DNA of 64,000 bases from Natrinema salinisoli. GTDB lineage: Archaea; Halobacteriota; Halobacteria; Halobacteriales; Natrialbaceae. Under the pieces are notes generated by a model. The model had not been told where the DNA came from. It saw only the letters and a program-made list of their open reading frames with translations, and ran no database searches. A program made the position numbers and the translations under genes. Of this stretch, positions 26,528 to 42,440 are shown piece after piece (position 1 is the first letter of the stretch; the number at the start of each line of letters is the position of its first letter). Location of the stretch: positions 186,001 to 250,000 of the forward strand of contig NZ_CP084470.1 in NCBI RefSeq assembly GCF_020405205.1, given 5' to 3'.

Positions 26528-27187
26528 ATGCAAATTGAGGACACCCGAGCAATCTGTACTACACTTTTTGCTGGATCCATTGTCCTCGCCAATGTACTAG
26601 CAGCAAAATTGACGTGGGTCGAATTACCTGTTATCGGTGGCGTTGCCGTTCCAGCAGGGTTTGTTGCGTTCGGTGTCGCCTATCTCGCGTCAGACTTGCT
26701 TGTTGAGTACCACGGACGCGAGTATGCGGCATCAGTCGTCAACGGAACTGTAGCCACGCTTGTTGTAGCGTACGCGCTAGTCTTCGTGGCGATCTGGATG
26801 CCGACAGCGCCCTTCTATGATGGAGAAGCAGCGTTCGTAGCTACGCTTGGTGATTCGGCGTCGATTATCCTAGCATCTGTCGTAGCGTTGGCAATCGCTC
26901 AACACCTTGATGTCAGACTTTTTTCGAAACTCAAGTCTCGAACAGGTGGTCGACATCGGTGGATACGCAACTGTGGGTCGACCGCCACCAGTCAGGGTGT
27001 CGATACGGTCGTGTTCATCACACTCGGGTTCGCGATCTTCCCAACTATCGGTCTCGGCGGTGACCCAACGTGGGGGTGGTCGTTGATATCGATCGTCATC
27101 GGCCAGTATTTGGTCAAACTACTGGTTGCACTCGTTGATACCGTGCCGTTCTACGCGGTGACGGAAGTCGTTGAGCAGAGGGCGTGA
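26528..27187 (+). CDS. VUT-family membrane protein (queuosine-precursor-transporter-like)
   Basis: A 219-residue protein with six or so hydrophobic segments. The motif ASDLLVEYHGREYA and the C-terminal half (TSQGVDTVVFITLGFAIF... YLVKLLVALVDTVPFYAVTEVV) match the YhhQ/QPTR (COG1738, VUT) family, where the conserved D-x-x-x-E-x-x-G and S-Q-x-x-D motifs are diagnostic. In bacteria these import preQ0/preQ1; in archaea they may supply archaeosine precursors. Its place between a hook ATPase and a PLD nuclease is unusual. The GTG of the next gene follows its stop after about 30 bp. Confidence 0.85.
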   Translation: MQIEDTRAICTTLFAGSIVLANVLAAKLTWVELPVIGGVAVPAGFVAFGVAYLASDLLVEYHGREYAASVVNGTVATLVVAYALVFVAIWMPTAPFYDGEAAFVATLGDSASIILASVVALAIAQHLDVRLFSKLKSRTGGRHRWIRNCGSTATSQGVDTVVFITLGFAIFPTIGLGGDPTWGWSLISIVIGQYLVKLLVALVDTVPFYAVTEVVEQRA

Positions 27188-27217
27188 AACCTCGATGCGA
27201 CCGCCCGTAGTGAGTCC

Positions 27218-29065
27218 GTGGAGACCGCTCTTGCCCGGTACCGACGGGTTGAACTGGCCGCTACGAACGAGGAGCGCGACCTCGAGACCCTCGTCTCGTT
27301 GCACAATCGGCTGTTGGTCGACCTCGGACTTGTCGACGCCGAGCAAGAATCGGAGACTGGCCCGGTCTCGGAGGTCGGCGCGCTCGTCCTATGCGGTGAG
27401 GATCCTCAAACCCTCCTGGAGACCCTCGCCGTCGCTAAGTGGCGGAGCGCCCGCCGTCTCCTCCGGGAATGCCTGGCAATCGACGGGGAACTTCCCAGAG
27501 AGGAGTACAACGGCCTACTCCGCGACGACTGGGAAAAAAACGTCCTGACTCCCCTGCTCGGATCGTTCGGGCTCCTGACCGCGTATCCGACCGGCGTCGA
27601 CGTTACCGAGTCGGCCGCACAGGCGGCCATGGACGCATACGATGCGACCTCGACGGACGTCGCAAGGGCGTCGCTCTACTGCCGCGTGCTCTCGTCAACG
27701 ATGAGCCTCGACGACTCGACTGGGGCGGACGTCACAAGTGAACTACTAGGTATCGAACCGGGCAGCGAGGTCGTTCCCGCAAACGCGATCGGGACGCTCG
27801 GAGAGGACTTTCCGCGAGCGATCGACCACGAAGCGGTCCTCGAGGCAGCGAGCGAGATCCGGGTGGAGTACGAGCAGGCGTCCCAAAGATATCGCCGCCT
27901 GGCCACCGGTGACGTCTCGGTGCCCGAGCGAGCCGATAAGGTCCTTCGCGTTACGTCCGAGGACGTCGATCCTTCTGATATCGCGTCGGTCGATGAGATC
28001 TTGAATCTGGTCGCGACGGTTATCGATGGCGATCTCGGTCGAATCGAAATGGACTATGTCACTGACGCCCTCAACGCCGAGCCCTACGATTGCTTCCAAG
28101 TACTGAACAACGTGCCCGGACTCGAATGCGATCTTGCAGACGAGACCGTCGAGGTGGTGCGCGTCCCGTCCGATGTCGCCGGGACAAGCCGCCTCGACGA
28201 GTACGTCGAGTACTTGCTTGATCAACACGCGATCGTCTCTCAGCGGATCGAAGCTCTCTCGCATCCCGAGTTCGAACTCGAGGGGAACCACGCCGACGCG
28301 AACCTCGTGGATCGCCTCGATCGTCTCCAGGATCGTCAGGTCGCGCCAACGTACTTCGCGTACACGTTGATCGACCCCGAGTCGCTCGGCGAAGAGGCGA
28401 TGGACGACTACGTCGGCGACTCCCGGGGCCTCCGCCGCGAGCGCGCCCTCCTCCAACGGTGGCATGAGGACCTGCCGAGCGGCCTTCGGTCGTACACGGC
28501 GATGACCGACCGCCTATTCAGCCTCGGGCTAGAGGAAGAACTGGATCACCGTGTCCTCCGGATCATGACGCCGTTCGACGATGACACGTTCAGCGAGTAC
28601 GCCGCGCAACTGCGGCGCCTCCTGGAACGTGGCTTCGAACTCCGCCTGCTCACTCGTCACACGAAAGAGCCCTGGGAGTGGCGCCGTCTTCGGGACAACC
28701 TGCTCGCACAACTCGAATCGAACCGCAAGAACGTCCACATCCGGACCTACTCGCGCTTCAAGACCCACCAGCGGGTCACCCGTGACACGGACCTCAGCGA
28801 CCTCAGTGAGCTCGGGATCCACGGCAAACTTCACGTCATCGGCGCTCCCGACGAGGGTGCCGCACTGCTTGGCTCGGCGAACTTCATGGAGAACAGCTAC
28901 CACTGGAACCCCGAGTGTGGCGTCTACACCGAGCAGTCCGCGTTCGTCGACAGCGCCACCGAGTTCTTCGATGTCGTCTGGGATATCGCCGGTGCGGACC
29001 AGCTCTCGCTGGAACGACTCCAGGAGATTCCGGAACGGCGGTTTATCCCGAGCTACTACAGTTAG
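27218..29065 (+). CDS. large protein with a C-terminal PLD (HKD) nuclease-like domain
   Basis: A 615-residue protein from GTG 27218. The N-terminal 430 residues are helical and acidic with no recognised domain. The C-terminal part has the PLD fold: a first strand/helix unit HRVLRIMTPFDDDTFSEYAAQLRRLLERGFELRLLTRH and then one HKD motif, G-I-H-G-K-L-H (His535, Lys537) ...LLGSANFMENSYHWNPECGV. With one HKD per chain it probably acts as a dimer, as in DrmC- or DpdK-type defence nucleases. Position after the hook ATPase and VUT gene suggests a shared role, perhaps DNA restriction. This is inferred from context only. Confidence 0.8.
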   Translation: METALARYRRVELAATNEERDLETLVSLHNRLLVDLGLVDAEQESETGPVSEVGALVLCGEDPQTLLETLAVAKWRSARRLLRECLAIDGELPREEYNGLLRDDWEKNVLTPLLGSFGLLTAYPTGVDVTESAAQAAMDAYDATSTDVARASLYCRVLSSTMSLDDSTGADVTSELLGIEPGSEVVPANAIGTLGEDFPRAIDHEAVLEAASEIRVEYEQASQRYRRLATGDVSVPERADKVLRVTSEDVDPSDIASVDEILNLVATVIDGDLGRIEMDYVTDALNAEPYDCFQVLNNVPGLECDLADETVEVVRVPSDVAGTSRLDEYVEYLLDQHAIVSQRIEALSHPEFELEGNHADANLVDRLDRLQDRQVAPTYFAYTLIDPESLGEEAMDDYVGDSRGLRRERALLQRWHEDLPSGLRSYTAMTDRLFSLGLEEELDHRVLRIMTPFDDDTFSEYAAQLRRLLERGFELRLLTRHTKEPWEWRRLRDNLLAQLESNRKNVHIRTYSRFKTHQRVTRDTDLSDLSELGIHGKLHVIGAPDEGAALLGSANFMENSYHWNPECGVYTEQSAFVDSATEFFDVVWDIAGADQLSLERLQEIPERRFIPSYYS

Positions 29066-29082
29066 CCCTCGCTATCTGTTCT

Positions 29083-29517
29083 TTAGACCTTCTCAAAGAG
29101 TCCTGGACTGGTCGGAGGGGTATAGGAATCGAGGAACGACCGGACGCTCCCGTGCTTCGCACGAAGCGTCTCGAAGCGCTCGTCGGTGGGTCGCATGAAC
29201 CCCTGCGGGTATTCCATCGAGTACCCCAGCGCCTCGTGGAGTTCCTCCGCGGGGAGATCGATCCGTCGAACGCGATCCAGATAGATCACGAAGGGCCACG
29301 GCTCCTCTTTGTTCGCGACGATTCGGCCCCCATCGTAGGGCACCCACAGTTCCTCTGCGACATCAAGACAGTAGCACACCAACCAAAGAACGCCTGGAAT
29401 GTCACCACTGCGACCGGACAATCGACCCCGGAAGACGCCCCGAACGGGAGCAAGGACGGCATTGCGATCATCCCCATTGTCAGTTAGTGCAGAGTCAGCC
29501 CACAATCTGTGGATCAC
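29083..29517 (-). CDS. possible hypothetical protein (minus strand, convergent with the PLD gene)
   Basis: A 144-codon frame with only a GTG at 29515-29517 as start. The C-terminal 90 residues, ELWVPYDGGRIVANKEEPWPFVIYLDRVRRIDLPAEELHEALGYSMEYPQGFMRPTDERFETL, look coding (balanced, acidic, few rare residues). The first 50 look less so, so it may be the 3' part of a truncated gene. No family recognised. Confidence 0.45.
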   Translation of the reverse strand: MIHRLWADSALTDNGDDRNAVLAPVRGVFRGRLSGRSGDIPGVLWLVCYCLDVAEELWVPYDGGRIVANKEEPWPFVIYLDRVRRIDLPAEELHEALGYSMEYPQGFMRPTDERFETLRAKHGSVRSFLDSYTPPTSPGLFEKV

Positions 29518-29573
29518 CTATCTGAAGGTCGCAGGAGAAAGGGACTTCTGGCCCAAGAGCGTCTACCAAATCA

Positions 29574-32500
29574 ATGGATGCAGGAGCAGACGCCACGGAT
29601 CCGACGTTCTGGGCAGACACCGATGATGAGGTGGCGGTCCAACGATTCCGGACACTCGTCAATACGGTCAACGACGGGATTTACCAGCTCGACGCTGCCG
29701 GACGATTCGTTGCGGTCAACGCTGTTATCGTCGAGATGTCTGGCTATACCCGTGACGAACTTCTGGGCGAACACGTCTCACTCCTCCTTGCGGACGACGA
29801 TATCGACCGTATCAGACGCAGAATCGAGGCCTGCCTGGCAGATAGCACACAACTAAACGAGACGTTTGAATTCATTGCCCGGACTAAAAACGGAGAATCT
29901 ACTCTCTGTGAACTCCAGACAAGTCTACTCGTCGAAGACGGATCGTTCGAAGGGACTGTTGGTATCGTTCGTGATATCACCAATCGGAAACAACATGAAC
30001 AGTTGCTTCAGGACCAGAAACGTCAACTCGAGCGCGAACGTGACCTGGTACACCATATTCTCGAGACGAGCCCCATCGGCATTCAGGTGCTGGATGCAGA
30101 CGGTGAAATCACGCGGATGAACGATCGTCTCAAGGAAATACTGGAGATTTCAACCGCAGAGGCAAACACGTACGATCCATCAGACCGATCCGTCTACGAC
30201 GAAACCGGGGAAGAACTCACGATTGACGAGCATCCGTTTGCCCATACGCTTGAGACAGGTGAACCAGTCTACGAGAAAATGATGCGCATCGAGCTCCCCA
30301 GCGGTGACACCCGCTGGCTCTCGGTCAACGCAGCACCTATTCTCACGGACGACGGGACAATCGACCGCGTCGTTACCACTGCTGAGGACGTCACCGAACT
30401 CAAGGAGCGGGAGCGCGAACTCTCGACGGAACTGGACGAAATGTTCGGGCGGATTTCGGACGCGTTCTACGCGCTCGACGAGGAGTTTCGGTTCGAACAC
30501 GTCAACACGCAGGCCGAGGAACTCCTCCAGCACTCCGAGAACAAGTTACTCGGCAAGAAACTCTGGGACGTGTTTCCCTCTGCTGCCGAGATCGACGAGG
30601 TCTGGGATGCGTTCCATACGGCACTCGAAACACAGGAGGCAACCAGCTACGAACTCTACTACGACGAACTTGACTTCTGGGTCGAAGCGAATATCTATCC
30701 CTCTGAGACTGGCGTCTCGGTCTATTTCCGCGACGTCACTGAGAGAAAGGAACACGAGCAAGAACTCGAACTGTTCCGGACGCTGCTGGATCACTCTTCC
30801 GACAGCGTGTTCGTGATCGATCCGTCCACGGGGCAGTTCCTTGACGTAAACGGGACCGCCTGCCGTCGCCTCGGATACGACCGCGAGGAACTGCTGGAGC
30901 TATCAGTCCCCGATATCGAATGGGGGTTGCCCGATCTTTCGGTGTGGGAATCTCACGTTAAGGAGGTGAAAACTGAGGGAGGAGCGACCTTCGACGGGAG
31001 ACACGAACGAAAGGACGGGAGTACCTTCCCAGTTGAAGTCAACGTCTCATACGCCGATCTGTCTCAGGAATACGTCATCGCAGTTGCCCGTGACGTAACT
31101 GAACGCCGGCAGCGCGAGCGTGAACTCGAGGAGTCTGAACGCCGGTACCGGACGCTCGCTGAGTGTTTCCCAAACGGGATCGTTACCCTGTTCGATGACG
31201 ATTTGACGTATACCCTGGCGGCAGGACGAGCATTCGATGATCTCCCCCTCGATCCCGATGAGGTAGAAGGGAACCCCGTCCAGGACGTGTGGGGCGCCGA
31301 TACCGTTGCGGCACTGGAACCACAGTTACGGGCCGCACTCGACGACGAGGAGACCGCGATCGAACTCGAATACGCGGGGCGGGAGTGGGTCGTGTACGTC
31401 GTCCCGGTCGCGAACGACAGCGGTGAGATATTTGCCGGGATGACGATGGCCCAGGACATCACTGAGCGCAAGGAGACCGAACGACAGCTGCGCCACCGCG
31501 AACACGAGCTCGAGCAGTACAAGGAATACACTGACGACATTCTGGGTGCGATCGACGACGTGTTCTACGTCCTCGATGAGAACGGCACCCTCAAGCGGTG
31601 GAACGCGACCGTCTCCGAAGTAACAGGCTATGCAAGCGACGAGGTTGAGACGATGCACGCACTGGATTTCTTTGCCGAGACGGATCACGAACAGATCGTG
31701 AACGCCATCGCTGAGGGATTCGAGACAGGGACGACACAAGTTGAAGCGAATCTGCAGACCAAAGCGGGTGATGAAATTCCGTACGAGTTCGTTGCCAACA
31801 GTCTGGAGAATCCCGCCGGGGATCAAGTGCTTACGGGTATCGGCCGGGATGTGTCTGCACGTGAGGAGAAACGGCGGAAACTCGAAGAGACGGTCGAGCA
31901 ACTCGAAACTTCCAACGAGCGCCTCGAACAGTTCGCCTACGCCGCCTCGCACGATCTACAGGAACCGCTGCGAATGGTTTCCAGCTACCTGCAGCTCCTC
32001 GAACGCCGCTACGGCAACGCACTCGACGAAGAGGGGGAGGAATTCCTCAAGTTCGCCGTCGATGGTGCTGACCGGATGCGGACGATGATCGAGGGGCTTC
32101 TCGCCTATTCTCGTGTCGAAACGAAGGGCAATCCGATTGAGCCAGTTGATCTCGAGGAGATACTTGATGATGTGGTCGACGATCTCCAGCTTCGAATCGC
32201 GGAGACCGATGCTGAACTCACCGTCGAGGAACTTCCGTGCGTCGAGGGTGACGCCAGCCAACTGCGCCAAATGCTTCAAAACTTGCTGAGTAATGCCATC
32301 AACTACAGCGGCGACAAACCGCCGCAGATTCACGTCGATGCGGAGCGACGAGGCGAGATGTGGACGATTTCGATCCACGACGAGGGCATCGGTATCGCGC
32401 CCGACGATCAGGAACGGGTGTTCGAAATCTTCAAACGGCTTCATGGCCGCGAAGCGTACGAGGGGGCTGGGATTGGACTCGCACTCTGTCAACGGATCAT

Positions 32501-32594
32501 TGAGCGCCACGGCGGTGAGATTTGGGTAGAATCGGAACTAGGTGAGGGGGCGACGTTCTCGTTTGCCCTTCCTGCGGCAGGAAATGATAATTGA
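29574..32594 (+). CDS. multi-PAS sensor histidine kinase
   Basis: A 1,006-residue soluble kinase with about six tandem PAS/PAC domains between residues 20 and 770. PAC ends are visible as G-x-V-R-D-I-T-N-R-K, TTAEDVTELKERE, YFRDVTERKEHE, VARDVTERRQRE and MAQDITERKETE. The HisKA domain has FAYAASHDLQEPLRMV (phospho-His793). The ATPase domain has an N box (LQNLLSNAINY), G1 (DEGIGIAPDD) and G2 (GAGIGLALCQRI). It resembles haloarchaeal orphan kinases. Its kinase core is nearly the same as that of the 35568-37625 kinase (SHD-[LQ/LR]-EPLRMVSSYLQL), so the two are paralogues. No adjacent response regulator. Confidence 0.93.
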   Translation: MDAGADATDPTFWADTDDEVAVQRFRTLVNTVNDGIYQLDAAGRFVAVNAVIVEMSGYTRDELLGEHVSLLLADDDIDRIRRRIEACLADSTQLNETFEFIARTKNGESTLCELQTSLLVEDGSFEGTVGIVRDITNRKQHEQLLQDQKRQLERERDLVHHILETSPIGIQVLDADGEITRMNDRLKEILEISTAEANTYDPSDRSVYDETGEELTIDEHPFAHTLETGEPVYEKMMRIELPSGDTRWLSVNAAPILTDDGTIDRVVTTAEDVTELKERERELSTELDEMFGRISDAFYALDEEFRFEHVNTQAEELLQHSENKLLGKKLWDVFPSAAEIDEVWDAFHTALETQEATSYELYYDELDFWVEANIYPSETGVSVYFRDVTERKEHEQELELFRTLLDHSSDSVFVIDPSTGQFLDVNGTACRRLGYDREELLELSVPDIEWGLPDLSVWESHVKEVKTEGGATFDGRHERKDGSTFPVEVNVSYADLSQEYVIAVARDVTERRQRERELEESERRYRTLAECFPNGIVTLFDDDLTYTLAAGRAFDDLPLDPDEVEGNPVQDVWGADTVAALEPQLRAALDDEETAIELEYAGREWVVYVVPVANDSGEIFAGMTMAQDITERKETERQLRHREHELEQYKEYTDDILGAIDDVFYVLDENGTLKRWNATVSEVTGYASDEVETMHALDFFAETDHEQIVNAIAEGFETGTTQVEANLQTKAGDEIPYEFVANSLENPAGDQVLTGIGRDVSAREEKRRKLEETVEQLETSNERLEQFAYAASHDLQEPLRMVSSYLQLLERRYGNALDEEGEEFLKFAVDGADRMRTMIEGLLAYSRVETKGNPIEPVDLEEILDDVVDDLQLRIAETDAELTVEELPCVEGDASQLRQMLQNLLSNAINYSGDKPPQIHVDAERRGEMWTISIHDEGIGIAPDDQERVFEIFKRLHGREAYEGAGIGLALCQRIIERHGGEIWVESELGEGATFSFALPAAGNDN

Positions 32595-33324
32595 GTGCTA
32601 GATACCGTGTTAAGCTCTCCACCTGTACTTACCGCTGAGGACTTCAACAGAGCTAATGAATTATCTTCTAATCGTGTCCTCAGTTGGCTGTCGGCAGCCC
32701 ACGCGAGTACGAACGCTCACCGAGACGGCTACACTGCTCACGATAATTATTCCGACCATCAGTAATGAGGCAACAGCGCCAACGAGCCAGATATTGTCCG
32801 AAGGAGTACGAGGAGAAAATATTTCAAGATCGATCGGTTCGATCGAATTTCCCTGTGTTTCGAAGCGAGAATAGTCGCGGAATTCCTCTCCCTACTCATC
32901 TAACCCGTCCTCCTACCGGAGCTCAAGGAGTTGCAGATAGATCGAGACCATGCGCGACGACGACTCTGGGAGCCTGCCGTCGACTCAAACTCGAATACAG
33001 TACCGGAAAACGCGAGTTCCATCTAGTGAATTCGTCTTCAGAATTGCGCTCGATGGAGAAAGTGATCGTGCCCGCGGTCGTTTACTGAGCCGATGACAGG
33101 AAAGGTCCCGTCTGTCATCGATCATAGCAACAAGCAAACTACATACCAATGAGTTTGGCCAGAACCCTTATCATTTCGCTGTTTAGTTATGTTTCTGGTA
33201 GAAGTAGACAGTCTGGTTTGGAGCCTGATTCACTGAACGGGAGAGAGTAGGGAAAATAACACCTATATGATGGGGGGATCGCGGGAGGTTACGAACTAAC
33301 TGCCATCTAACAACACAGATCAGT
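32595..33324. other. 730-bp stretch with IS-like ends and no intact gene
   Basis: It contains the 16-bp repeat (32622-32637) shared with 3442-3457, directly followed by GAGGACTTCAACAGAGCT (32637-32654), a diverged right IS end. A weak plus-strand tail frame ends at 33088 (SSSELRSMEKVIVPAVVY) without a recognised family. Confidence 0.5.
32637..32654 (-). repeat. diverged orphan IS end (right-end orientation)
   Basis: GAGGACTTCAACAGAGCT compared with GAGGATTTCAACAGAGCC, two differences. No transposase is adjacent. Confidence 0.45.
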
Positions 33325-33921
33325 ATGCACGGAATCATTCTGAAAGGGCTGAAGGACTTCACGATCGAACAGTACGATGAGGCCACTTGGAATCGCATTC
33401 GGGACGAAGCAGACGTCGAGCGAAGACTGTATGTCCCGGTGACCGAATATCCCGACGAACACGTTTTCGAACTCGTCACGACGGCCTCGGAGATTTCAGG
33501 GGTAGATCCGCCGATACTCTTACGCGCGTTCGGCCGGTTTCTCGTCCCACAACTCGTTCAGACCTACGGCGTCCACGTCGAGAAGGACTGGGACGGCCTC
33601 GAGTTGATCGAGAACGTCGAGGAATACATCCACATGGCGCTTCGGGCAAAAGACATGGCGGACTTCACTCCGCCGGCCGTCGACGCTCGTCGGCTCGACG
33701 AGAATCGTGTCGTTGTCCGCTACAACTCCGATCGGCAACTGTGCGAAGTCGCCATCGGCATTCTTGTGGGAATAGGTGAGTTCTACGATGAGTCCTACAC
33801 AGTGACCGAATCTCAGTGCATGCACGACGGCGCTCCAAAGTGTGAGATCGTCGTCGAGCGCGAGATCCCCACATCGCTCGATAACGGAGACGACAGCATG
33901 AATTCCGTGAGGACACCATGA
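33325..33921 (+). CDS. H-NOX (haem NO-binding) domain protein
   Basis: A 198-residue protein, MHGIILKGLKDFTIEQYDEATW..., with the diagnostic Y-x-S-x-R motif (Tyr133, Ser135, Arg137) that binds haem propionates and a proximal haem ligand His103 (EEYIHMALR). Pro at 116/117 is also as expected. H-NOX proteins sense NO or O2. The C-terminal end CMHDGAPKCEIVVEREI resembles the last strand of the family. It overlaps the next gene by ATGA, so sensor and enzyme-like partner are coupled. It lies between two PAS kinases, which could be signalling partners. Confidence 0.92.
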   Translation: MHGIILKGLKDFTIEQYDEATWNRIRDEADVERRLYVPVTEYPDEHVFELVTTASEISGVDPPILLRAFGRFLVPQLVQTYGVHVEKDWDGLELIENVEEYIHMALRAKDMADFTPPAVDARRLDENRVVVRYNSDRQLCEVAIGILVGIGEFYDESYTVTESQCMHDGAPKCEIVVEREIPTSLDNGDDSMNSVRTP

Positions 33922-34982
33922 GCAGTGGGGACGCTGCGATCCGCGAGGATGACAGGGAGTCTAACCGAGACGACGATCGCGGCGACCGGCCGGGAAGCTA
34001 CGGCGAGCATGTTCTCCAGAAGCGGTTCGGAACCGAAGACCGCGCTGACCGATTCTACGACTCGGAGATGCAGGCGACGCTGACTGACCGAATGCAGTCG
34101 TTCCTCGCGGAGCGATGGACCGGCTTCGTCGGTTGGCTAGACGATGGTCGGCCGCGGGTCACCCCGGCTGTCGATGGTCCGGGGATGGTGCAGGTACTCG
34201 ACTCCGAGACCGTCGCGTGGCCTGCTGGCACAATGATCGGTCCAACGCCAACGTTGGACGGTTCTCAAGAAGAACGGTGGCTATCGTTAGTGACCGTTGA
34301 TTGGTTCGATACGACGGTCGGGTTGCACATCAACGGCGTCGGCGAACGCGTTGAGTACGTCTATAATCAGCAACACGAGCGTCTCCCCGGGACCGACTGG
34401 ATCGTGCTATCGGTCGAAGAAGCGTACATCCACTGCGCGAAGCACGCCCCACAGCTATCTGTAGAGCAGCTACCACTGGCCGAGGCTGCGCGCGATCCTA
34501 TCGAGAAATCATTCGGACGGCTGTCCAAACGGGCCCAGCGGTTTGTCGGATCGCGACTTCAGGCAGTTCTCGGAACCGCAGACGCCGACGGGGAGACCGA
34601 CGTTTCACCGCGGCTGGGGCCGGCAGGGTTCGTGCAGGTACTCGATGAGTCGACGCTGGCGTGGCCGGAGTACCGCGGCAACGGTGTCCACGCCTCGTTG
34701 GGGAACATGTACGAGCGACCCGTCGCTACCCTTTCGTTTGTCGACTGGTGGTCGACAGAGGCCATCCTCGAGGTGAGCGGCACTGTGTCTCTCGAGGACG
34801 AGGTCGATGATGCAACGGATTTGACCGATGTCGATCAGACGAAGACATGGGTCAGTCTGGAGGTTGATTCAGTCGGTCTCGTAACGAATCCACCGTTACC
34901 TCGCCTCTCGCTCGAAGAGTTCGATCCACCGTGGGGGACCGACGATGCGAGCATCAAGAAAAGCGGTTATTTTACGGATTGA
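33918..34982 (+). CDS. two-repeat flavin split-barrel (pyridoxamine 5'-phosphate oxidase-like) protein
   Basis: A 354-residue protein with two split-barrel repeats. Repeat 1, about 55-180: FLAERWTGFVGWLDDGRPRVTPAVDGPGMVQVLDSETVAWPAG. Repeat 2, about 210-335: FVGSRLQAVLGTADADGETDVSPRLGPAGFVQVLDESTLAWPEYRGNG. P-R-x-x-P and G-F-V-Q-V-L-D-E-x-T-L-A-W-P are typical for FMN-binding PNPOx-like pyridoxamine oxidase relatives. The N-terminal GSYGEHVLQKRFGTEDRADRFYD is a common lead-in. It is coupled to H-NOX, so a flavin enzyme acting on NO-related stress is an attractive but unproven reading. Confidence 0.85.
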   Translation: MSSGDAAIREDDRESNRDDDRGDRPGSYGEHVLQKRFGTEDRADRFYDSEMQATLTDRMQSFLAERWTGFVGWLDDGRPRVTPAVDGPGMVQVLDSETVAWPAGTMIGPTPTLDGSQEERWLSLVTVDWFDTTVGLHINGVGERVEYVYNQQHERLPGTDWIVLSVEEAYIHCAKHAPQLSVEQLPLAEAARDPIEKSFGRLSKRAQRFVGSRLQAVLGTADADGETDVSPRLGPAGFVQVLDESTLAWPEYRGNGVHASLGNMYERPVATLSFVDWWSTEAILEVSGTVSLEDEVDDATDLTDVDQTKTWVSLEVDSVGLVTNPPLPRLSLEEFDPPWGTDDASIKKSGYFTD

Positions 34983-35004
34983 TATCCTCCCCGCCGTGAT
35001 CAGA

Positions 35005-35077
35005 GAGGGACCGTCGGTCCCTCAAGCAGTCGGGCATGGCCCGACGACAGCTTGGGCTTCCAACCGCAGGACTGCGG
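35005..35077 (+). ncRNA. three consecutive GC-rich hairpins, possible IS200/IS605-type right end or guide-RNA remnant
   Basis: GAGGGACC-gtc-GGTCCCTC (35005-35023), GTCGGGC-atg-GCCCGAC (35029-35045) and CCGCAG-ga-CTGCGG (35064-35077) are all perfect. They follow GGATTGATATCCTCCCCGCC, which resembles haloarchaeal TnpB-element right ends as I recall them. No tnpB is present. It could also act as a terminator for the H-NOX operon. Confidence 0.45.
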
Positions 35078-35149
35078 CTAGTTTGGGGACCTCGGATTTA
35101 CAGACTAACACTGTTGAGGTACCACGCCCCCGTTACTCCTCACAGATTG

Positions 35150-35484
35150 GATGTTCAGTGTTAGTTCAGAATATTGTTGTTTTAACCGCCGTTGCTGCCG
35201 ATAAGGGATACAACTGGGAGGTTCTTCGCATGAAACTGCGATCGGAAGGTATCACACCGGTTATCCCGACAAGAGTGATGGATTTGCATGGCCTCGTGAG
35301 GAACCCCTTGACCGATGATCGGACGGACCACCAACGCTCGGACATTGAGTCGGTGCTTTTCGGATTACGCCGTCGGTACGGCGAGACGCTGTGGTCGAGA
35401 ACCTGGTACGGACAGTTCCGCGAACTTGTCATGAAATCCGCGGTCCGAAACATCGAACGCGCCATCAAGGGCTCTGACCCATGA
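35150..35484 (+). pseudogene. C-terminal fragment of an IS5-type transposase
   Basis: The frame reads VLTAVAADKGYNWEVLRMKLRSEGITPVIPTRVMDLHGLVRNPLTDDRTDHQRSDIESVLFGLRRRYGETLWSRTWYGQFRELVMKSAVRNIERAI. A-D-K-G-Y and S-D-I-E-S are the second catalytic Asp and the catalytic Glu of an IS5-type DDE transposase. The N-terminal half is missing. It is a different lineage from the IS at 10829 (ETLWSRTWYGQFREL versus FVRSRRWWKQFRE). Confidence 0.75.
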
Positions 35485-35567
35485 CAGTAGGCGTCTAAAC
35501 AGGAGCCGATAGATGTATTCATCAAACTGTCATCTGTAGGCTGTTCAGATCCCCCGAAGCAGGCGAT

Positions 35568-37625
35568 TTACTGTGGATTCTGAAGCGTCAAAGAGAATGT
35601 CGCGCCATCGCTCGGCGTCGAGTCGACCCAGATCTCGCCCCCGTGGCGCTCAACGATTCGCTTACACAGCGCGAGTCCGATCCCTGTGCCAGCGTGTTCT
35701 TCTTGGGTGTGGAGCCGCTCGAACACCTTGAAGATGCGCTCTTGATCCTCGGGATCGATCCCGATGCCCTCGTCGGTGACCGACAGGGTCCACTCTTCAC
35801 CGGACCTCGTGGCCGAAACGTCGACGCGGGGCGGTTCGTCGCCGCTGTACTCGATAGCGTTCTTGAGCAGGTTCTGGAACAGCTGCCGGAGCTGACTGGC
35901 GTCGCCCTCGACCGTCGGGAGTTCCTCGACCGTAATCTCCGCGTCATGCTCCTCGATCTGGATCTGGAGATCAGCCATCAGGTTTTCAAGGACATCATTC
36001 AGATCTATAGGTTCAAATGGCTCTCCCTCTGTCTCGACACGCGAGTACTCAAGAAGCCCGTCAATCATCGCACGCATCCGGTCTGCCCCGTCGACGGCGA
36101 ACTGAATGAACTCCCTGCCGTCCTCATCAAGTTCATCGGCGTACTGCTGCTCGATCAACTGGAGGTAACTAGAGACCATCCGTAGCGGTTCCCGGAGGTC
36201 GTGGGAGGCGGCATAGGCGAACTGTTCGAGGCGTTTGTTCGACTCCTTGAGCTCGCGCTCGTAGGTCTTCCGTTCGGTTATGTCACGGGCCACGCCGATC
36301 ATCCGCGTCGGACCGTCGTCGTCCTGGATCGGATGACCGGGAGCTTCAATCCATCGCACCTCCCCGTCCCGGACAATGCGAATCTCTTCGGATTTCGGCT
36401 CGCCCGTCTCGAGGGCATTCTCGATACCTTCTTGTACCTTCTGTCTATCTTCCGAGTGAATCACCTCGACGAAGTCCTCCCAGGTCTCGACGGTCGTTCC
36501 GTAAAGCGACTCTGCCGAGGGGTAAAACGACGCCTGGTCTTCGTCGACGTTCCAGTCCCAGACGACCGCGTCGGTGGCGTTGAGCGCGAATTCCATCCGT
36601 TCTCGGACATGCTGAAGTTCGCGCTCGCGCTCTTTGCGCTCAGTGATGTCTCGAAAGTAGACGGACATTCCCGACTCAGCGGGATACCCTCGGACCCCCA
36701 CCCAAATGTCGAGTACATCCGAGTAATATTCAAACTCCAGCAATTCGTTGGCCGCCATTGCTTCCTCGGCCATCTCACGGAGATGGCTATCAGCGATCTC
36801 GTATAGAACATCCCAGACACGAGTCTCTAGGAGCTCCTCTGGGGGTAACTGGACCAGCTCGGTCGCCTGGTCATTGACGTAGGTGATGTTCCACTCATCG
36901 TCGAGGGCCATGAACGCCTCGTCGACTCGCTTGAAGATCTCATCAAGTTCTGCCTCGAGTTCGTCTCGCTGCTGTTCGAGCCTCTCGGCCTGTTCTTCCA
37001 GTTGTTGCTCATACTCGCGGCGGTCAGTCATGTCACGTGTGACCTTCGTGAATCCCCGGATATCTCCCTCGTCGCCTCGGATAGCGGTGATCGTCACATT
37101 CGCCCAAAACCGCGAGCCGTCTGAACGGACCCGCCACCCCTCGTCTTCGATTCGGCCATCTGCCACTGCGCCCTCGAGGTTCTGCTCCGGCACGTCATCG
37201 GCGACGTCCTCGTCGGTGTAGAACGTCGAAAAGTGTTTGCCCACGATTTCGTCTTCCGAATATCCTTTGATCCGCTCAGCCCCCTCATTCCAGCTCACGA
37301 TATTGCCGTCGGGATCGAGCAAGAAGATGGCGTAGTCCTTGACGGCATTCACGACGGCACGGAACTGTTCTTCATCCGGTTGCCGGCCGCTTGATACCTG
37401 TCCCTGGGGTTTCCACCAGACTCTGCCTGAACCGGCTCCTTGCTTGGTTCGAATCTCCCCCCGGTTGACAAGGTCTTCCAGCCAGCGCCGGGCGACTTGA
37501 GGGGAACAATCCAGTGCCTCCGCGATCTCTTCAGTAAAAAATGGCGTCGACGGGTTGGGTGTTTGACTGAAGAACCCCCGGATATCGTCTCCCGTCACGT
37601 CCTGTGTTGGCCCCTGAGATCCCAT
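35568..37625 (-). CDS. PAS sensor histidine kinase with an N-terminal winged-helix-like domain
   Basis: A 685-residue protein. Residues 8-75 (GDDIRGFFSQTPNPSTPFFTEEIAEALDCSPQVARRWLEDLVNRGEIRTKQGAGSGRVWWKP) form a winged helix. Three PAS/PAC units follow (about 85-200, 220-330, 340-455), then HisKA with FAYAASHDLREPLRMV (phospho-His475) and an ATPase domain with N box (FQNLLKNAIEY), G1 (DEGIGIDPED) and G2 (GTGIGLALCKRI). A DNA-binding-like domain on a kinase is unusual and could couple sensing directly to DNA. A coiled coil rich in Glu/Gln (about 203-225) links PAS1 and PAS2. The kinase core is paralogous to 29574-32594. Confidence 0.92.
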   Translation of the reverse strand: MGSQGPTQDVTGDDIRGFFSQTPNPSTPFFTEEIAEALDCSPQVARRWLEDLVNRGEIRTKQGAGSGRVWWKPQGQVSSGRQPDEEQFRAVVNAVKDYAIFLLDPDGNIVSWNEGAERIKGYSEDEIVGKHFSTFYTDEDVADDVPEQNLEGAVADGRIEDEGWRVRSDGSRFWANVTITAIRGDEGDIRGFTKVTRDMTDRREYEQQLEEQAERLEQQRDELEAELDEIFKRVDEAFMALDDEWNITYVNDQATELVQLPPEELLETRVWDVLYEIADSHLREMAEEAMAANELLEFEYYSDVLDIWVGVRGYPAESGMSVYFRDITERKERERELQHVRERMEFALNATDAVVWDWNVDEDQASFYPSAESLYGTTVETWEDFVEVIHSEDRQKVQEGIENALETGEPKSEEIRIVRDGEVRWIEAPGHPIQDDDGPTRMIGVARDITERKTYERELKESNKRLEQFAYAASHDLREPLRMVSSYLQLIEQQYADELDEDGREFIQFAVDGADRMRAMIDGLLEYSRVETEGEPFEPIDLNDVLENLMADLQIQIEEHDAEITVEELPTVEGDASQLRQLFQNLLKNAIEYSGDEPPRVDVSATRSGEEWTLSVTDEGIGIDPEDQERIFKVFERLHTQEEHAGTGIGLALCKRIVERHGGEIWVDSTPSDGATFSLTLQNPQ

Positions 37626-37835
37626 TACCTTCGAATCTCATCGTGTGCCTATAAGCGCTTGGCATTCCCAAACAATAGACTCCACGTCTATCCCGTTATA
37701 GTGTGAGAAATGCGCTGTGCATTCAGCACGACTCTCTGAAGATATACGAAGATTGGAAAGTTCCCTGGCAGTCAATACGCAACTGTAGTATTTACTGATA
37801 AACTGTGAGTTGAACTGGTCGTTCACTCGAGATGG
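37626..37835. other. intergenic stretch with a partial degenerate repeat
   Basis: It holds an inverted 25-bp match (37703-37740) to the repeat at 7101-7174. No gene visible. Confidence 0.4.
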
Positions 37836-37865
37836 ATTGTCGCCCCAGGAGGGGCGCGGGGGCTC
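37836..37865 (+). promoter_or_regulatory. T-rich box plus GCCCC hairpin motif, copy 8
   Basis: ATTGTCGCCCC, then AGGAGGGGCGCGGGGGC: CGCCCC pairs with GGGGCG. It ends 24 bp before ATG 37890. Confidence 0.6.
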
Positions 37866-37889
37866 GACTGAAGTCCGCCGCATCAATCC

Positions 37890-38105
37890 ATGCGAACAAC
37901 TGATAGCAACAGCGTCGTCAGACGTGGGGACGACTCAGTTCCTGAAGCGAGCTATCGCCAGATGACCAACCATAACGCGTGTCGGATGCCGGGTTGTTCA
38001 GCGCTTACTCACGATCAGGCAGGATACGCTGGCCGATTCTGTTCGGACAGCTGTGAGGTCCTGCAGGCGGACGCTCGAGACGCTGCTCAAGAGGACGTGT
38101 ACTGA
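37890..38105 (+). CDS. small zinc-binding haloarchaeal plasmid protein
   Basis: A 71-residue protein from ATG 37890. NACRMPGCSALTHDQAGYAGRFCSDSCEVLQADARDAAQEDVY carries C-x4-C and C-x3-C pairs, likely a treble-clef or MYND-like zinc site. Similar short proteins occur in other haloarchaeal plasmids; function unknown. The hairpin motif precedes it closely, as for the other plasmid-type genes. Confidence 0.65.
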   Translation: MRTTDSNSVVRRGDDSVPEASYRQMTNHNACRMPGCSALTHDQAGYAGRFCSDSCEVLQADARDAAQEDVY

Positions 38106-38470
38106 TGCTCGAACAGGTTGATCACCGTGGCAAGTGCTTGACGATCGATGATTCCATCGTCGACGAAATAAATGACGAGAACTCCCGACAGACAGATGCA
38201 CTCGAACAGCAGGCCCAGCAAGAAGCTTGTGAACTCGAGCGTGCAAAAGCGGTCGCTGGTCCAGCTGGTTCGAATCCCTCGTCCAGTGCATGTGTATCGT
38301 CTTTGATCTGGTAGATAATCCCTCGATGCTGGAGTAGATCGAGGGCGCGATGGCGGTACTCTGATGGAAGTCGGCGCGGCGTGCCAAGTCCGTTGCGGCA
38401 TGCGGTTTCTCGAGATAGTAGAGGACGCGAAGCGTCACACCGGACAACAGTCCGGGCCACTCGAACCGAG
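38087..38470 (-). pseudogene. winged-helix regulator gene with two frameshifts
   Basis: On the minus strand, PGLLSGVTLRVLYYLEKPHAATDLARRADFHQST continues after a one-base loss as YRALDLLQHRGIIYQIKDDTHALDEGFEPA. In the third frame it continues as RFCTLEFTSFLLGLLFECICLSGVLVIYFVDDGIIDRQALATVINLFEHQYTSS, ending at 38087. HQST-YRALDLLQHRGI is a clear recognition helix. The pieces add up to one regulator of about 125 residues. It overlaps the end of the small zinc-protein gene by 19 bp. Confidence 0.6.
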
Positions 38471-38473
38471 TAC

Positions 38474-38662
38474 CAGGTCCGCTACGAGTTTTCGAACACG
38501 ATCGACGGCGACACGCCGTTGCCGATGAACTGCGATAACGACGATCTGCAGCGCTACTGCATCGGCCAAGACCAGTGCCCCTACTCGATCTGGGGAAGTC
38601 TCCCATTCCTAGATGAGATGTACGACCAAGTCGACGAGGAGTCTGCCAGTCCCACTGAGTAG
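38474..38662 (+). pseudogene. C-terminal fragment of a Cys-containing hypothetical protein
   Basis: The frame YQVRYEFSNTIDGDTPLPMNCDNDDLQRYCIGQDQCPYSIWGSLPFLDEMYDQVDEE looks genuine: C-x9-C-x5-C and aromatic-rich. It has no start codon before residue 17 and its upstream codons fall in the inverted pseudogene. Probably a truncated gene. No family recognised. Confidence 0.4.
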
Positions 38663-38750
38663 TTCTGAATCAAAGACTTCGCCGAATCTGTTTATTATCC
38701 AGATAGACTTCTGCAGTTCCGCTAAATAGAGGGCATATTTCCGTATTCAC

Positions 38751-39407
38751 TCATGATCTGTTCTTCCACTGATTGTCCCCTTCTTGTTCGCGTGGGTCAC
38801 CGATGGCGTCTTTGATTATTTCGCCTTCAGCTCGGTGAAGAACGCCACTGATCACCGATTTGTTGACCTCGAGTTCCTCGGCAAGATCAGTCAAAGAACA
38901 CCCTCGAGGGTTATCGTAATATCCTCGTTTAATTGCGACCGTGAGAATCTCTCGTTGCCGAGCGGTGAGAGAATCGAGAACGTTGTAGCCCTCAGTGATT
39001 GAGAGAATTTCATAGTTGACGTTGCGTTCGTCGAGTGACTCCCACATCGCCGCCATCTTTGACTCTGGCATCACGAATTCGATGAAGAGGTGGCCGTCAC
39101 GAGCGACGACAGGAGTCGTTGGGTGGTATTCAATGTCCTCAGAGACGAAATACCCATTGGGCGGCTGTCCCTCAAGCATCATGACTACTGTATCATCATC
39201 GCTGTGCAACAGTGTGGTCGAACTCGAAAACCAATTCTCGGTTTCCTGAACAAATTCTTCTGGGTGGTCCGTCTGAATCTCCAAAACGCTGGTCACACCA
39301 TTCTCTGAGGGGTAATTCGAGAGAAATCGGATAACTGTATTCGGAAACTTATCAGCGATAGCGACCATGTCCGGCATTGGGCCGACCTTGAGACGTACCC
39401 GTGGCAT
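38751..39407 (-). CDS. Bat-type (HTH_10) transcriptional regulator of the copper/redox cluster
   Basis: A 218-residue protein from ATG 39405-39407. Residues 1-140 form a bacterio-opsin-activator-type ligand domain. LDSLTARQREILTVAIKRGYYDNPRGCSLTDLAEELEVNKSVISGVLHRAEGEII is the HTH_10 domain. A near-palindromic GGTAAACATGTTCACC lies 36-51 bp before its start. The same element recurs before four neighbouring genes, so this protein is a natural candidate for the factor that binds it. Confidence 0.9.
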   Translation of the reverse strand: MPRVRLKVGPMPDMVAIADKFPNTVIRFLSNYPSENGVTSVLEIQTDHPEEFVQETENWFSSSTTLLHSDDDTVVMMLEGQPPNGYFVSEDIEYHPTTPVVARDGHLFIEFVMPESKMAAMWESLDERNVNYEILSITEGYNVLDSLTARQREILTVAIKRGYYDNPRGCSLTDLAEELEVNKSVISGVLHRAEGEIIKDAIGDPREQEGDNQWKNRS

Positions 39408-39442
39408 ACTCGTCCTTGTCTCCCTCAGATAATGAGCACAGA

Positions 39443-39461
39443 GGTAAACATGTTCACCTCC
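39443..39461. promoter_or_regulatory. AACATGT element A (before the Bat-type gene)
   Basis: GGTAAACATGTTCACC is palindromic apart from one base pair. It lies 36-54 bp upstream of ATG 39407 (minus), just before a TATA-like CATTATC. Confidence 0.6.
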
Positions 39462-39510
39462 ATCCTTAGAATAGCTCTGGAAATTTCAGGGTAACTGGCT
39501 TTGTTCCCGA

Positions 39511-39527
39511 TGCCAACATGTCCACGT
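39511..39527. promoter_or_regulatory. AACATGT element B (before the 39565 membrane gene)
   Basis: GCCAACATGTCCACGTG, 38-54 bp upstream of ATG 39565. Confidence 0.55.
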
Positions 39528-39564
39528 GAATTTTCATCCAGCACACAGCGAAACCTCGTTTGTG

Positions 39565-39999
39565 ATGTATTCAGCACAAGTAGAGAAGAGGGACAACAGA
39601 GACTCCGTTCCGACACACGTTCAATGGGCGACGTACTCCTACCTCGGCGCAGCTGTCCTCCTTACAGCCAGTGTTCTCATCCAAATTTACATCGCCGGAA
39701 TGGCCGTGTTTGTTGATCCGGCCCGATGGAGCAGTCACGTCTCGTTCGGCAATATTCTGCCGGTAGTTCTTCTGATACTGTTCGTCCTCGCGTTCCTCGG
39801 GCGATTACCCCGGATTCACAAGGGACTTCCAATTGTAATCTTTCTCTTGTTCTTCATCCAATTCGCCACCGCCCATCGGTTCGGGTCGCTCGTCGGGGCG
39901 ATTCACCCGGTGAATGGAGTCGTGATATTCTGGTTGTCGACGATCACAGTCCAGCGTGCATGGGCAGAAGTTACGGCTAACAGAGGCGGAGTTCTATGA
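39565..39999 (+). CDS. membrane protein with four predicted helices
   Basis: A 144-residue protein from ATG 39565 (MYSAQVEKRDNRDS). Hydrophobic segments: SYLGAAVLLTASVLIQIYIAGMAVFV, ILPVVLLILFVLAFLGRLP, LPIVIFLLFFIQFATAHRF and VNGVVIFWLSTITVQRAWA. No named family is certain; the layout resembles small haloarchaeal DUF proteins with a conserved His near helix 3. An AACATGT element lies just upstream, tying it to the copper/redox regulon. The longer frame from 39526 overlaps that element and is less likely. Confidence 0.75.
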   Translation: MYSAQVEKRDNRDSVPTHVQWATYSYLGAAVLLTASVLIQIYIAGMAVFVDPARWSSHVSFGNILPVVLLILFVLAFLGRLPRIHKGLPIVIFLLFFIQFATAHRFGSLVGAIHPVNGVVIFWLSTITVQRAWAEVTANRGGVL

Positions 40000-40107
40000 A
40001 AAGTACTCTACCTGAGTCGGAACTCGACGCGTGGAGATCCAATCCTTGGTACCGCGTGTTTGAACCGCGAAACACTGACCAAACGGCAGAAGATCTGCAA
40101 CTCGACT

Positions 40108-40598
40108 ATGAATAAAGGACTTCCCGATCCATCTCTACGCGTCGTTATTCATGTGTTCGGAGCAACAGTAATTGGAGCAAGCTTCGCAGGGTGTCTCGGC
40201 AGTCCTAGTGAGAATAGCGATGAATCAAGGCGTGCTGACGAAACCTACGTTGACGATCCTCCCGACTACGTCGGGTGGTTCGACGACATCGATAATTATC
40301 GTTGGACTGTAGACGAACGTGGACAGGACGAGGTATTCGTCCGTGTCGGTGCAAGGAGCCGAGGAATGGCGTCTGACCCACCGGCGGTGATGATCGCTCT
40401 GGGTACGACTATTGTCTGGGAATGGGCCGGTGACGGTGGAACACACAACGTTGTAGCCGAGAGTGGTGAGTTCGAGTCAGAATACTCTAACTCGAGCGAT
40501 TACGCGTACGAGTATACGTTCGAGGACTCCGGGGTCTTCAAGTACGTCTGCGAACCGCATGGTCAGCGGGAATGAAGGGAGCAATCGTGGTCGAATGA
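40108..40598 (+). pseudogene. halocyanin-like blue copper lipoprotein with a 3' frameshift
   Basis: The frame from ATG 40108 has a lipoprotein signal (VVIHVFGATVIGASFAGC, lipobox Cys29) and a cupredoxin domain: PPAVMIALGTTIVWEWAGDGGTHNVVAE ... GVFKYVCEPHGQRE, then stop at 40575. The copper ligands His (THNV), Cys and His (CEPH) are present, but the axial Met region is lost. One frame over, MKGAIVVE follows at 40572-40598, the normal family ending (G-M-K-G-A-I-V-V-E). Adding one G to the GGG at 40568-40570 restores it. It is therefore a recent single-base lesion or a sequencing error. Confidence 0.8.
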
Positions 40599-40606
40599 TC
40601 TTACTA

Positions 40607-41131
40607 CTACTTGAATTCGGATTCTACTTCGAGTAGCGTCGTCAGTTCCTCCTCAAACTCACGCTCGGTGAGATGCCCGTCCACGTACCGAGTCCGAACC
40701 TCCGTGAGCGACTCTGCCGCCCTCTCTTGGGGCGATCTCGGATCCGGAGGTGTGATTGCCGTTGAGAGACCGATGATACGGATTGTCGAGTATTCCTCTT
40801 CGAATTCTTCGAACCACTTTCCGAGTCGATACCGGCCCTTTCTGACGCCCATAGTCGCAACCGACAAAGTCCATTGTACGAGATACCACGTGAGACTGAG
40901 CACGCAAAATAGTCCTGCCAGAGTGAAGAGAACGATTGCGAGAAGTAGGAGACCGAGGGGATTCACCGGATCCGAGTACGCTATCAGGGTGCTCACGATG
41001 GTGGCAAATCCGAAACAGAGGAGACTAGCTCCGGCGAGGATCACGTATGGATTCCCGGACGGAATTCCGTTTCTACGTATGTTAGATTGTCGCGTCATTT
41101 GTGTACTCTGGCACTTCGAACGGCCGATCAT
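40607..41131 (-). CDS. membrane protein with a SHOCT-like C-terminus
   Basis: A 174-residue protein whose ATG (41129-41131) overlaps the stop of the FAD monooxygenase gene (ATGA), showing coupling. Two transmembrane helices (YVILAGASLLCFGFATIVSTLIAY and LGLLLLAIVLFTLAGLFCVLSLTWYLV) are followed by a cytoplasmic part ending in AAESLTEVRTRYVDGHLTEREFEEELTTLLEVE, the short SHOCT oligomerisation helix pair. ATG 41098 (MTRQSNIRR) is an alternative start. Function unknown. Confidence 0.8.
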   Translation of the reverse strand: MIGRSKCQSTQMTRQSNIRRNGIPSGNPYVILAGASLLCFGFATIVSTLIAYSDPVNPLGLLLLAIVLFTLAGLFCVLSLTWYLVQWTLSVATMGVRKGRYRLGKWFEEFEEEYSTIRIIGLSTAITPPDPRSPQERAAESLTEVRTRYVDGHLTEREFEEELTTLLEVESEFK

Positions 41132-42309
41132 ACTGACTCATTCCAGTCCACCCTGTACGAGTAGATTTCTTCGAAGCTTTCCACACCTCGCTTCAGGAAG
41201 AACGGAAGGACGAGGTCCCGAACTTTCCGAGTGACCAAATTGGAAGGTGCTTTCTGATTCCCAGTCTCCCGAGACATCTCAACGATTCCCTCGACTCGAT
41301 CTCGTCGCAGGGACTCGAACGTCTCGAACGCGTCCGGGACCCCTTCAACGTCCCGTAGGCACTTTGCCAGGACAATTGCGTCCTCCATCGCCAGCGAAGC
41401 CCCCTGACCGACGTGCGGGGACGTCGCGTGAGCGGCATCTCCGATAAGGCAAACCGTCCCCCGATTCCACGTTGGGAGCGACGGCAGGTCGTACACGGGC
41501 CACTTGCCGATTTCTCCATCAGTCGAGCGGATGATTTCAGAGACTTCGTTGTGATCGTTCTTGTGGAGTCGAAGTAACTTCTTTTTCCACTCTGCTTGCG
41601 AGATCGCGTCGAGTGCTGCACGATCTGGAGCCTGCTTCCGTTCGTGGTTCTCGAACCAGTAAATCTCGCCCGTCGGAACCTTCTGGTAACCGAAGAACCC
41701 GTCCACACCGAACGTCATTCTCATGACCCCGTCCGTCGGCGGGATCGAGTCGTTCCTGGTGAACGCGCCTGAATCGATGATTCCCGTATACTCGGGATCC
41801 GGCGCGTTAGGGAGAATCGAGCGACGAGTTTGTGAATGAATACCGTCACAACCGACGAGGAAGTCTCCGTGGGCTTCCGTACCATCGTCGAAATACGCGA
41901 TAGCCATGTCTTCGTGTGGAATTTGGACGTCGGTCAGGCGCTTGCCGAACTTCACGGTGATGCCCTGCTCAACCGCCGCTTCTCGGAGACTCTTGGTCAG
42001 GAGACCTCGCTTGATGAGAACCGTCTCGGAGGGGTTCTCACCGAGCTGTTTCTGTTTGTGGTTCTGGAAGACCAACCGATTAGATTCGTGACCACCTTCG
42101 AGGACTTTCTCCCGGATACCGAGTGTTTCCAGGACGTCCGTTCCGTTTGCAGCGAGGTTGAGGAAGAATCCGGCGTCATCTCGTGGTTCAGGCCGTCCCT
42201 CGTAGATGACGGGAGTGATACCGATCCGCCGGAGATACAGTGCGAGCACTGGTCCCACGACTCCGCATCCGATGATCAGTGCTTTCCGATCGCGAGCAGG
42301 CGCACTCAT
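41128..42309 (-). CDS. FAD-dependent monooxygenase (UbiH/salicylate-hydroxylase type)
   Basis: A 393-residue protein from ATG 42307-42309. The N-terminal FAD-binding Rossmann motif is ALIIGCGVVGPVLALYLRRIGITPVIYEGR. The mid-chain D-G motif is FLVGCDGIHSQTRRSI, and the second FAD motif is VCLIGDAAHATSPHVGQGASLAMEDAIVLAKCL. These place it in the group A flavin monooxygenases (COG0654). The substrate is unknown. It is first in a coupled pair with the SHOCT-like gene. An AACATGT element lies about 135 bp upstream, further than in the other genes. Confidence 0.9.
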   Translation of the reverse strand: MSAPARDRKALIIGCGVVGPVLALYLRRIGITPVIYEGRPEPRDDAGFFLNLAANGTDVLETLGIREKVLEGGHESNRLVFQNHKQKQLGENPSETVLIKRGLLTKSLREAAVEQGITVKFGKRLTDVQIPHEDMAIAYFDDGTEAHGDFLVGCDGIHSQTRRSILPNAPDPEYTGIIDSGAFTRNDSIPPTDGVMRMTFGVDGFFGYQKVPTGEIYWFENHERKQAPDRAALDAISQAEWKKKLLRLHKNDHNEVSEIIRSTDGEIGKWPVYDLPSLPTWNRGTVCLIGDAAHATSPHVGQGASLAMEDAIVLAKCLRDVEGVPDAFETFESLRRDRVEGIVEMSRETGNQKAPSNLVTRKVRDLVLPFFLKRGVESFEEIYSYRVDWNESV

Positions 42310-42440
42310 CGTGAACACCTAGTGTTGGCGAATTCGGTCACTTGGATTTCCACGCCGTGGCCGGTTCCCGCAGCATCTTTACCAAACTTCGATTTTCTGG
42401 TCATCAGAGAATAATTGCATTGGTTCTCGCATCATCATTC

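Follow-up and report, generated by a model that had tools for sequence, protein, structure and literature searches.

The window analysed here, a stretch of 64,000 nucleotides from Natrinema salinisoli, carries an H-NOX gene that overlaps a gene for a protein of two split-barrel repeats. The H-NOX proteins of bacteria and archaea are related to the NO receptor of mammals. The two repeats of the split-barrel protein have lost complementary sets of conserved residues, apparently after a single duplication, and the two gene families are associated elsewhere in part of the order, though not as an operon. That the pair represents a small NO-responsive redox module, in which the H-NOX acts on or with a co-translated split-barrel pseudo-dimer possessing one cofactor site, we consider quite possible, if somewhat short of probable.

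Organisation of the locus

The pair resides on a 400 kb contig, separate from the 4.19 Mb main contig of this 4.7 Mb haloarchaeal genome. The genes and their flanks are as follows (positions within the window):

29574-32594, + strand: PAS histidine kinase, ending 730 nt upstream of the pair
33325-33921, + strand: H-NOX (heme NO-binding) gene, 198 aa; PF07700, E 6.4e-33, 114.4 bits
33909-33921, + strand: Shine-Dalgarno-like GAGG, and the ATGA in which the stop of the first gene overlaps the start of the second, by direct reading
33918-34982, + strand: gene for a two-repeat PNPOx-like split-barrel protein, 354 aa; PF01243, 54.1 bits in two stretches; model pLDDT 80.9
35568-37625, - strand: PAS histidine kinase, convergent, ending 585 nt downstream of the pair

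As the preliminary description had it, the four bases ATGA at 33918-33921 are common to both open reading frames; GAGG stands 5 nt ahead of the second ATG. This stop/start overlap argues for translation of the H-NOX and the split-barrel protein off one message. The two PAS kinases said to flank the pair are indeed present, but nothing shows that they belong to the unit: given their distances, and the convergent direction of the second, they are neighbours and no more.

An open reading frame at 34945-35484 overlaps the end of the split-barrel gene and shows a weak match to DDE_Tnp_1 (E 0.079); it may be the remains of an insertion sequence, lying between the pair and the second kinase. Upstream, the region 24386-29065 of the window encodes an SMC/AAA ATPase, for which LmuB is the best PADLOC model (113 bits), a Vut_1 transporter-like protein and a PLD-domain protein that is weakly DrmC-like. 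It may be a defence-type island interrupted by an unrelated gene. When plasmids were searched for near-identical DNA, none of the best 20 of 53 matches listed covered the pair; other parts of the region 24000-44000 did give matches.

The H-NOX sensor

The upstream protein scored far above the curated cut-off of the HNOB profile (25.5 bits), and over its whole length it could be aligned with solved structures of NO-type H-NOX proteins (4u9b, E 9.6e-22 by phmmer). Alignment placed the following residues:

33631-33633, + strand: codon of His103, aligned to the proximal heme His of Shewanella H-NOX
33721-33735, + strand: heme motif Y133-N-S-D-R137
33742-33843, + strand: Cys140, Cys165 and Cys173, corresponding to the three zinc/thiol-site Cys of H-NOX proteins

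His103 together with Y133, S135 and R137 makes up the heme-binding set, YNSDR being presumably the YxSxR heme motif. The proximal His was also found in 44 of 45 H-NOX rows that were MCP-linked or unassigned (the remaining row has a gap) and in all five rows linked to an FAD protein; the label MCP was in this comparison the default for unassigned rows and so takes in L285, a row with no neighbour assigned.

The gene had been described as an NO/O2 sensor. At the position that we take to be that of Tyr140 in the Thermoanaerobacter protein, the O2-binding Tyr of the distal pocket, the window H-NOX has Val, and because of this it is likelier to be an NO-type sensor; judged by its sequence, NO-type is the better description. 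A distal Tyr is required for O2 binding by H-NOX proteins according to the accessible part of PMC8738867. The zinc/thiol site, which in excerpts of PMC12329717 consists of three Cys and a His or Gln, has Glu at the fourth ligand position (Cys165 minus 3) in the window protein. Since the genome possesses two NirK-type nitrite reductases above the curated cut-off, the host is predicted to make NO, and an endogenous source of the ligand is plausible.

In a phylogenetic tree the window H-NOX was nearest to the group of FAD-protein-linked H-NOX proteins (86/86, which is not strong), one member of which is encoded in the same genome. A grouping with the H-NOX proteins of two other genomes, G332 and G401, was considered and rejected: the values of 86/86 and 89/87 are below the starred level and the branch is long.

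Usual neighbours of haloarchaeal H-NOX genes

From a larger set of H-NOX places, the neighbourhoods of 99 haloarchaeal loci with 104 H-NOX frames were examined. Three contexts dominated: an MCP gene directly downstream, a PRPP synthetase gene directly upstream (its identity was confirmed on one example) and a gene for an Amino_oxidase-type FAD protein downstream. A split-barrel neighbour of the family described here occurred within the 99 loci in the window and in Halocatena only; a third case, in genome G417, was found later. The partner had been called unusual, and this is borne out, since H-NOX genes usually have an MCP gene after them or a PRPP synthetase gene before them.

The H-NOX partners named in the accessible parts of PMC8738867 and PMC12329717 are kinases, cyclases, phosphodiesterases and MCP domains. 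With the stand-alone NO-sensing H-NOX systems that have HnoK, a diguanylate cyclase or an MCP as partner, as far as excerpts describe them, the window pair shares the sensor family, the proximal His, the YxSxR motif, the three zinc-site Cys and an adjoining partner gene. It differs from them in that the partner is a split-barrel redox-type protein instead of a kinase, cyclase or MCP, and in having Glu in place of His or Gln at the fourth zinc position. The literature searched, which mostly lacks subscription journals, contained neither an H-NOX with a PNPOx-like partner nor anything on the function of haloarchaeal H-NOX proteins.

Several of these neighbourhoods have features of their own. The Amino_oxidase-type FAD protein, which makes a second kind of flavoprotein next to H-NOX and differs in fold, is encoded downstream on the same strand at five loci of the same genus (L048, L058, L067, L069 and L074), one of them in the genome that contains the window. 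In none of the 47 PRPP-synthetase-linked HNOB-family proteins (L073, L095, L257 and others) is His among the five residues listed at the proximal position, which are Tyr (27), Ala (7), Val (5), Thr (4) and Arg (2), with other letters in two rows. Most of these proteins keep the Tyr/Arg pair and the three Cys. They look like H-NOX homologues that lack a heme ligand and are tied to nucleotide-precursor synthesis. In G332, G401 and G417 (L250, L251 and L283 9521-10456) the gene after H-NOX encodes an MCP-like HAMP/coiled-coil protein of 274-311 aa without a match to PF00015, which seems to be an MCP minus its signalling tip.

Family and fold of the split-barrel protein

The PNPOx_N profile (PF01243, cut-off 28.1 bits) matched the 354-aa protein in two stretches, and by AlphaFold modelling and structure comparison both halves are split barrels. 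The preliminary description of an H-NOX followed by a two-repeat PNPOx-like protein was thus correct. The best NCBIfam model, for this protein and for all its single-barrel relatives tested, was TIGR04025 (MSMEG_1061 family FMN-dependent PPOX-type flavoprotein). All of them remained far below its curated cut-off of 170 bits, and with a score of 79.1 bits the window protein, unlike the family a tandem duplicate, is to be classed as a relative of TIGR04025 and not as a member.

The model of the whole chain had a pTM of 0.82. The second barrel superimposed on 2htd (Z 14.5, rmsd 2.8, 118 residues) and on HupZ (Z 14.2, rmsd 2.2, 114 residues). The first barrel, modelled apart (aa 1-192, pLDDT 83.2), matched HupZ 5esc (Z 11.2, rmsd 2.6, 105 residues), and its matches also included heme-bound NohD and msmeg_4975, which carries FAD and heme (4ybn, Z 9.1, rmsd 4.7, 115 residues). 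Since flavin- and heme-binding split barrels are both among the top matches, the modelled fold does not discriminate among flavin, F420 and heme. Functions ascribed to superfamily members in the available part of PMC12204192 are the removal of O2 or NO, the sequestering of flavin, heme degradation and regulation.

At the sequence level the protein had no match in the PDB at E 1 (phmmer). The flavocytochromes Anf3 and MSMEG_4975, which are split-barrel dimers whose cofactors touch both subunits and which remove O2 (excerpts of PMC6579470), were likewise not matched by our PDB sequence searches. No relatives of the protein were found in viral contigs or phage records, and a BFVD fold search gave no convincing match.

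Duplication and complementary loss

Single-barrel relatives of about 190 aa are present in other haloarchaea, with 53-60% identity over the best segment, and the family extends well into the bacteria: 561 pattern matches included 529 relatives, and the 80 of these that were kept are mostly bacterial. The leader of repeat 1 and the tail of repeat 2 both have counterparts in the single barrels, from which it follows that an internal tandem duplication of a single barrel gave the 354-aa form. Among the matches listed there were only two other two-repeat orthologues, in G332 and G401 (Haloarcula rara SHR3). The repeats of the window protein are composed as follows:

33918-34487, + strand: repeat 1, with the leader and the GLHxNG / EAYIHCxKH set retained and the set at 54-97 (single-barrel numbering) lost
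34425-34445, + strand: YIHCAKH in repeat 1 (aa 170-176)
34488-34982, + strand: repeat 2, the barrel matching 2htd, with the WGTDD tail and the SPRxGPxGF...PEYRGNGVHASLGN set retained and EAYIHCxKH lost
34665-34706, + strand: PEYRGNGVHASLGN in repeat 2 (aa 250-263)

Both repeats of the three two-repeat orthologues were aligned to 83 single barrels, a set that left out L175 (truncated) and L158 (two-repeat), and columns with at least 90% conservation were scored. Out of 65 such columns, 23 were kept in all three copies of repeat 1 only, 25 in all three copies of repeat 2 only, 11 in both and 6 in neither (Fisher p 9e-5). Because leader and tail can occur once only, the test was repeated on the core alone, the 50 columns of which gave 14, 19, 11 and 6, respectively (p 0.021). 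For the window protein alone the result was borderline (p 0.054). The losses fall in blocks. In the window protein, repeat 2 keeps 23 of 24 conserved positions between 52 and 98 and repeat 1 keeps 8, while between 99 and 162 the numbers are 17 of 21 for repeat 1 and 8 for repeat 2. Each of the residues His119, His156, Cys157, Lys159 and His160 recurs in 81 to 83 of the 83 single barrels.

In other split barrels the cofactors occupy the interface of the dimer, in contact with both subunits. Complementary loss in a protein built around such an interface is most simply read as the formation of a one-chain pseudo-dimer with one composite cofactor site. An arrangement of this kind, with cofactors at the interface contacting both subunits, is described for Anf3 in the accessible part of PMC6579470.

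In the phylogenetic tree the three copies of repeat 1 formed one clade (100/99) and those of repeat 2 another (100/100), which places a single duplication before the three two-repeat lineages diverged. A clade uniting repeat 1 with repeat 2 was absent from the tree and was not rejected (p-AU 0.167). Two-barrel PPOX proteins also occur in bacteria (Streptomyces, Sinorhizobium, Ensifer plasmids). They divide the motifs in the same way, with SHRGG...GN in repeat 2 and NCPKYI or NCPQYI in repeat 1, but their sequences are remote from the window protein and they perhaps go back to a separate duplication, tree support being weak. A common origin of the haloarchaeal and bacterial two-barrel forms was considered and found unsupported (62/61, with long branches), and a profile of three of the bacterial proteins had no match in the PDB at 0.1. 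Two of the three have redox-type neighbours, namely catalase in Sinorhizobium and ferredoxin with an FAD oxidoreductase in Streptomyces (L110 2962-6119, L109 2995-5365), hinting at a ferredoxin-fed redox role of the bacterial proteins.

Distribution of the pair

The preliminary description had made its case depend on conservation of the pair outside this strain. In its operon form the pair is not conserved: among the matches listed, the exact H-NOX/two-barrel operon occurred in none of 148 sampled relatives and 391 other genomes of the order. H-NOX was detected at E 0.001 in 71 of 149 relatives (own genome included), 70 of them over the cut-off. The matches listed for the split-barrel protein came from 6 of these 149, again with its own genome, and from no other genome searched of the same genus. 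For an order sample of 392 genomes, the matches listed gave 91 with H-NOX and 22 with the split-barrel (PPOX) family. Both genes were present in seven genomes, and 7 of 22 PPOX genomes against 91 of 392 overall is not a significant excess (p 0.23); 15 of 21 PPOX carriers were without H-NOX.

As a looser association, however, the pair recurs in part of the order. In another family, that of Halocatena marina (G317), PPOX is present in 12 and H-NOX in 8 of 146 genomes, and all eight H-NOX genomes carry PPOX (Fisher 1e-10 by genome). The value was 5e-10 when G420, identical to G317 over the 10 kb fetched, and G426, a 27% match, were dropped. Since the genomes are related, the fair figure is the one by genus (3/3 vs 2/19, p 0.0065).

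Within that family the genes adjoin each other in two lineages. In Halocatena marina the PPOX gene is divergent from two tandem H-NOX genes, its start codon and that of the first being 383 nt apart, and the H-NOX genes are followed by MCP, CheW and CheY. In G417 the order on one strand is PPOX, H-NOX and the shortened MCP-like gene. The number of adjacencies of this kind that chance would give over these seven genomes is about 0.006. G332, G401, G277 and G411 have both genes at widely separated places, and in G460 the two occupy different contigs. An H-NOX gene was found in the flanks of only one of the 80 mostly bacterial stretches kept from the 529 related ones.

Possible roles of the pair

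These observations might be explained as follows. The H-NOX would bind NO through its His103-ligated heme, possibly sense thiol oxidation through the three-Cys site, and act on, or together with, the split-barrel protein translated alongside it. The latter would descend by tandem duplication from a single-barrel, TIGR04025-like PPOX protein. Its relatives suggest that the ancestral family formed homodimers with a cofactor site at the interface. After the duplication the two barrels would have lost complementary halves of this site, so that the chain may now form a pseudo-dimer that has a single composite site for flavin (or heme), to which repeat 2 would contribute the GNG/SPR set and repeat 1 the EAYIHCxKH set. 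A likely reaction would be the reduction or scavenging of NO or O2, or else redox sensing relayed to a signalling output, which in other haloarchaea is an H-NOX-MCP chemotaxis branch. Our confidence in a functional coupling of the two proteins is moderate; in the exact reaction of the split-barrel protein it is low.

A stand-alone H-NOX and an unrelated flavin protein with separate roles could also have become neighbours by chance on a plasmid-like replicon. The separate 400 kb contig is compatible with this, as are the lack of the same gene order among the matches listed for every other genome searched and the two-repeat orthologues of G332 and G401, which are unlinked to H-NOX. We nevertheless hold it to be rather unlikely in view of the start/stop overlap, the independent adjacency in two further lineages and the 8/8 co-occurrence in one family.

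Those same lineages suggest a role in NO or redox taxis, with the H-NOX and the split-barrel protein as joint inputs of an MCP and the flavin protein reporting redox state without catalytic turnover. A directly downstream MCP (by MCPsignal matches) is a common partner of heme-competent haloarchaeal H-NOX proteins, and MCP or MCP-like genes follow H-NOX in both Halocatena and G417. Around the window pair, however, no MCP match was found in the 11.6 kb scanned, and the MCP-like genes of G332, G401 and G417 are those without the PF00015 domain, which makes this explanation unlikely for the pair.

Heme handling in the manner of HupZ, HutZ, NohD or the flavocytochromes Anf3 and MSMEG_4975 is another alternative that we regard as improbable. 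Here the split-barrel protein would supply, remove or reduce the heme of the H-NOX, or would use heme and flavin to remove NO or O2. It would account for the fold matches, which include HupZ, HutZ, NohD and msmeg_4975, and for the conserved His, Cys and Lys residues of the single barrels. Moreover, according to the available part of PMC6579470, O2 is reduced by Anf3 by means of heme and FAD, and homologues are suggested there to reduce NO. Against it stand the missing sequence matches to the two flavocytochromes and the fact that no heme ligand could be assigned in the split-barrel protein.

Finally, signalling of the H-NOX through the flanking PAS histidine kinases in an HnoK-like manner, with the flavin protein incidental, recalls bacterial H-NOX proteins that act on kinases (excerpts of PMC8738867) but is very improbable, since an H-NOX/HnoK operon has an adjacent co-directional kinase whereas the nearest one here ends 730 nt upstream and the other is convergent, the two carry six and three PAS stretches of their own by profile search, and a profile built from them matched at only 2 of 98 other H-NOX loci.

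We thus favour the NO-responsive redox module. A bolder version, to which we are inclined to give less credence, is that the pair represents a new class of H-NOX output: the sensor heme would control, by direct contact, an NO-gated redox enzyme that evolved by complementary loss from a two-site homodimer to a one-site, one-chain pseudo-dimer, and sensor and enzyme would form one NO-triggered detoxifying or redox-signalling unit in haloarchaea. The known outputs of H-NOX proteins are signalling proteins, and a redox partner would link the sensor directly to chemistry. The doubled barrel would at the same time be a clean natural case of two repeats splitting one ancestral job, with one interface site kept and the other discarded.
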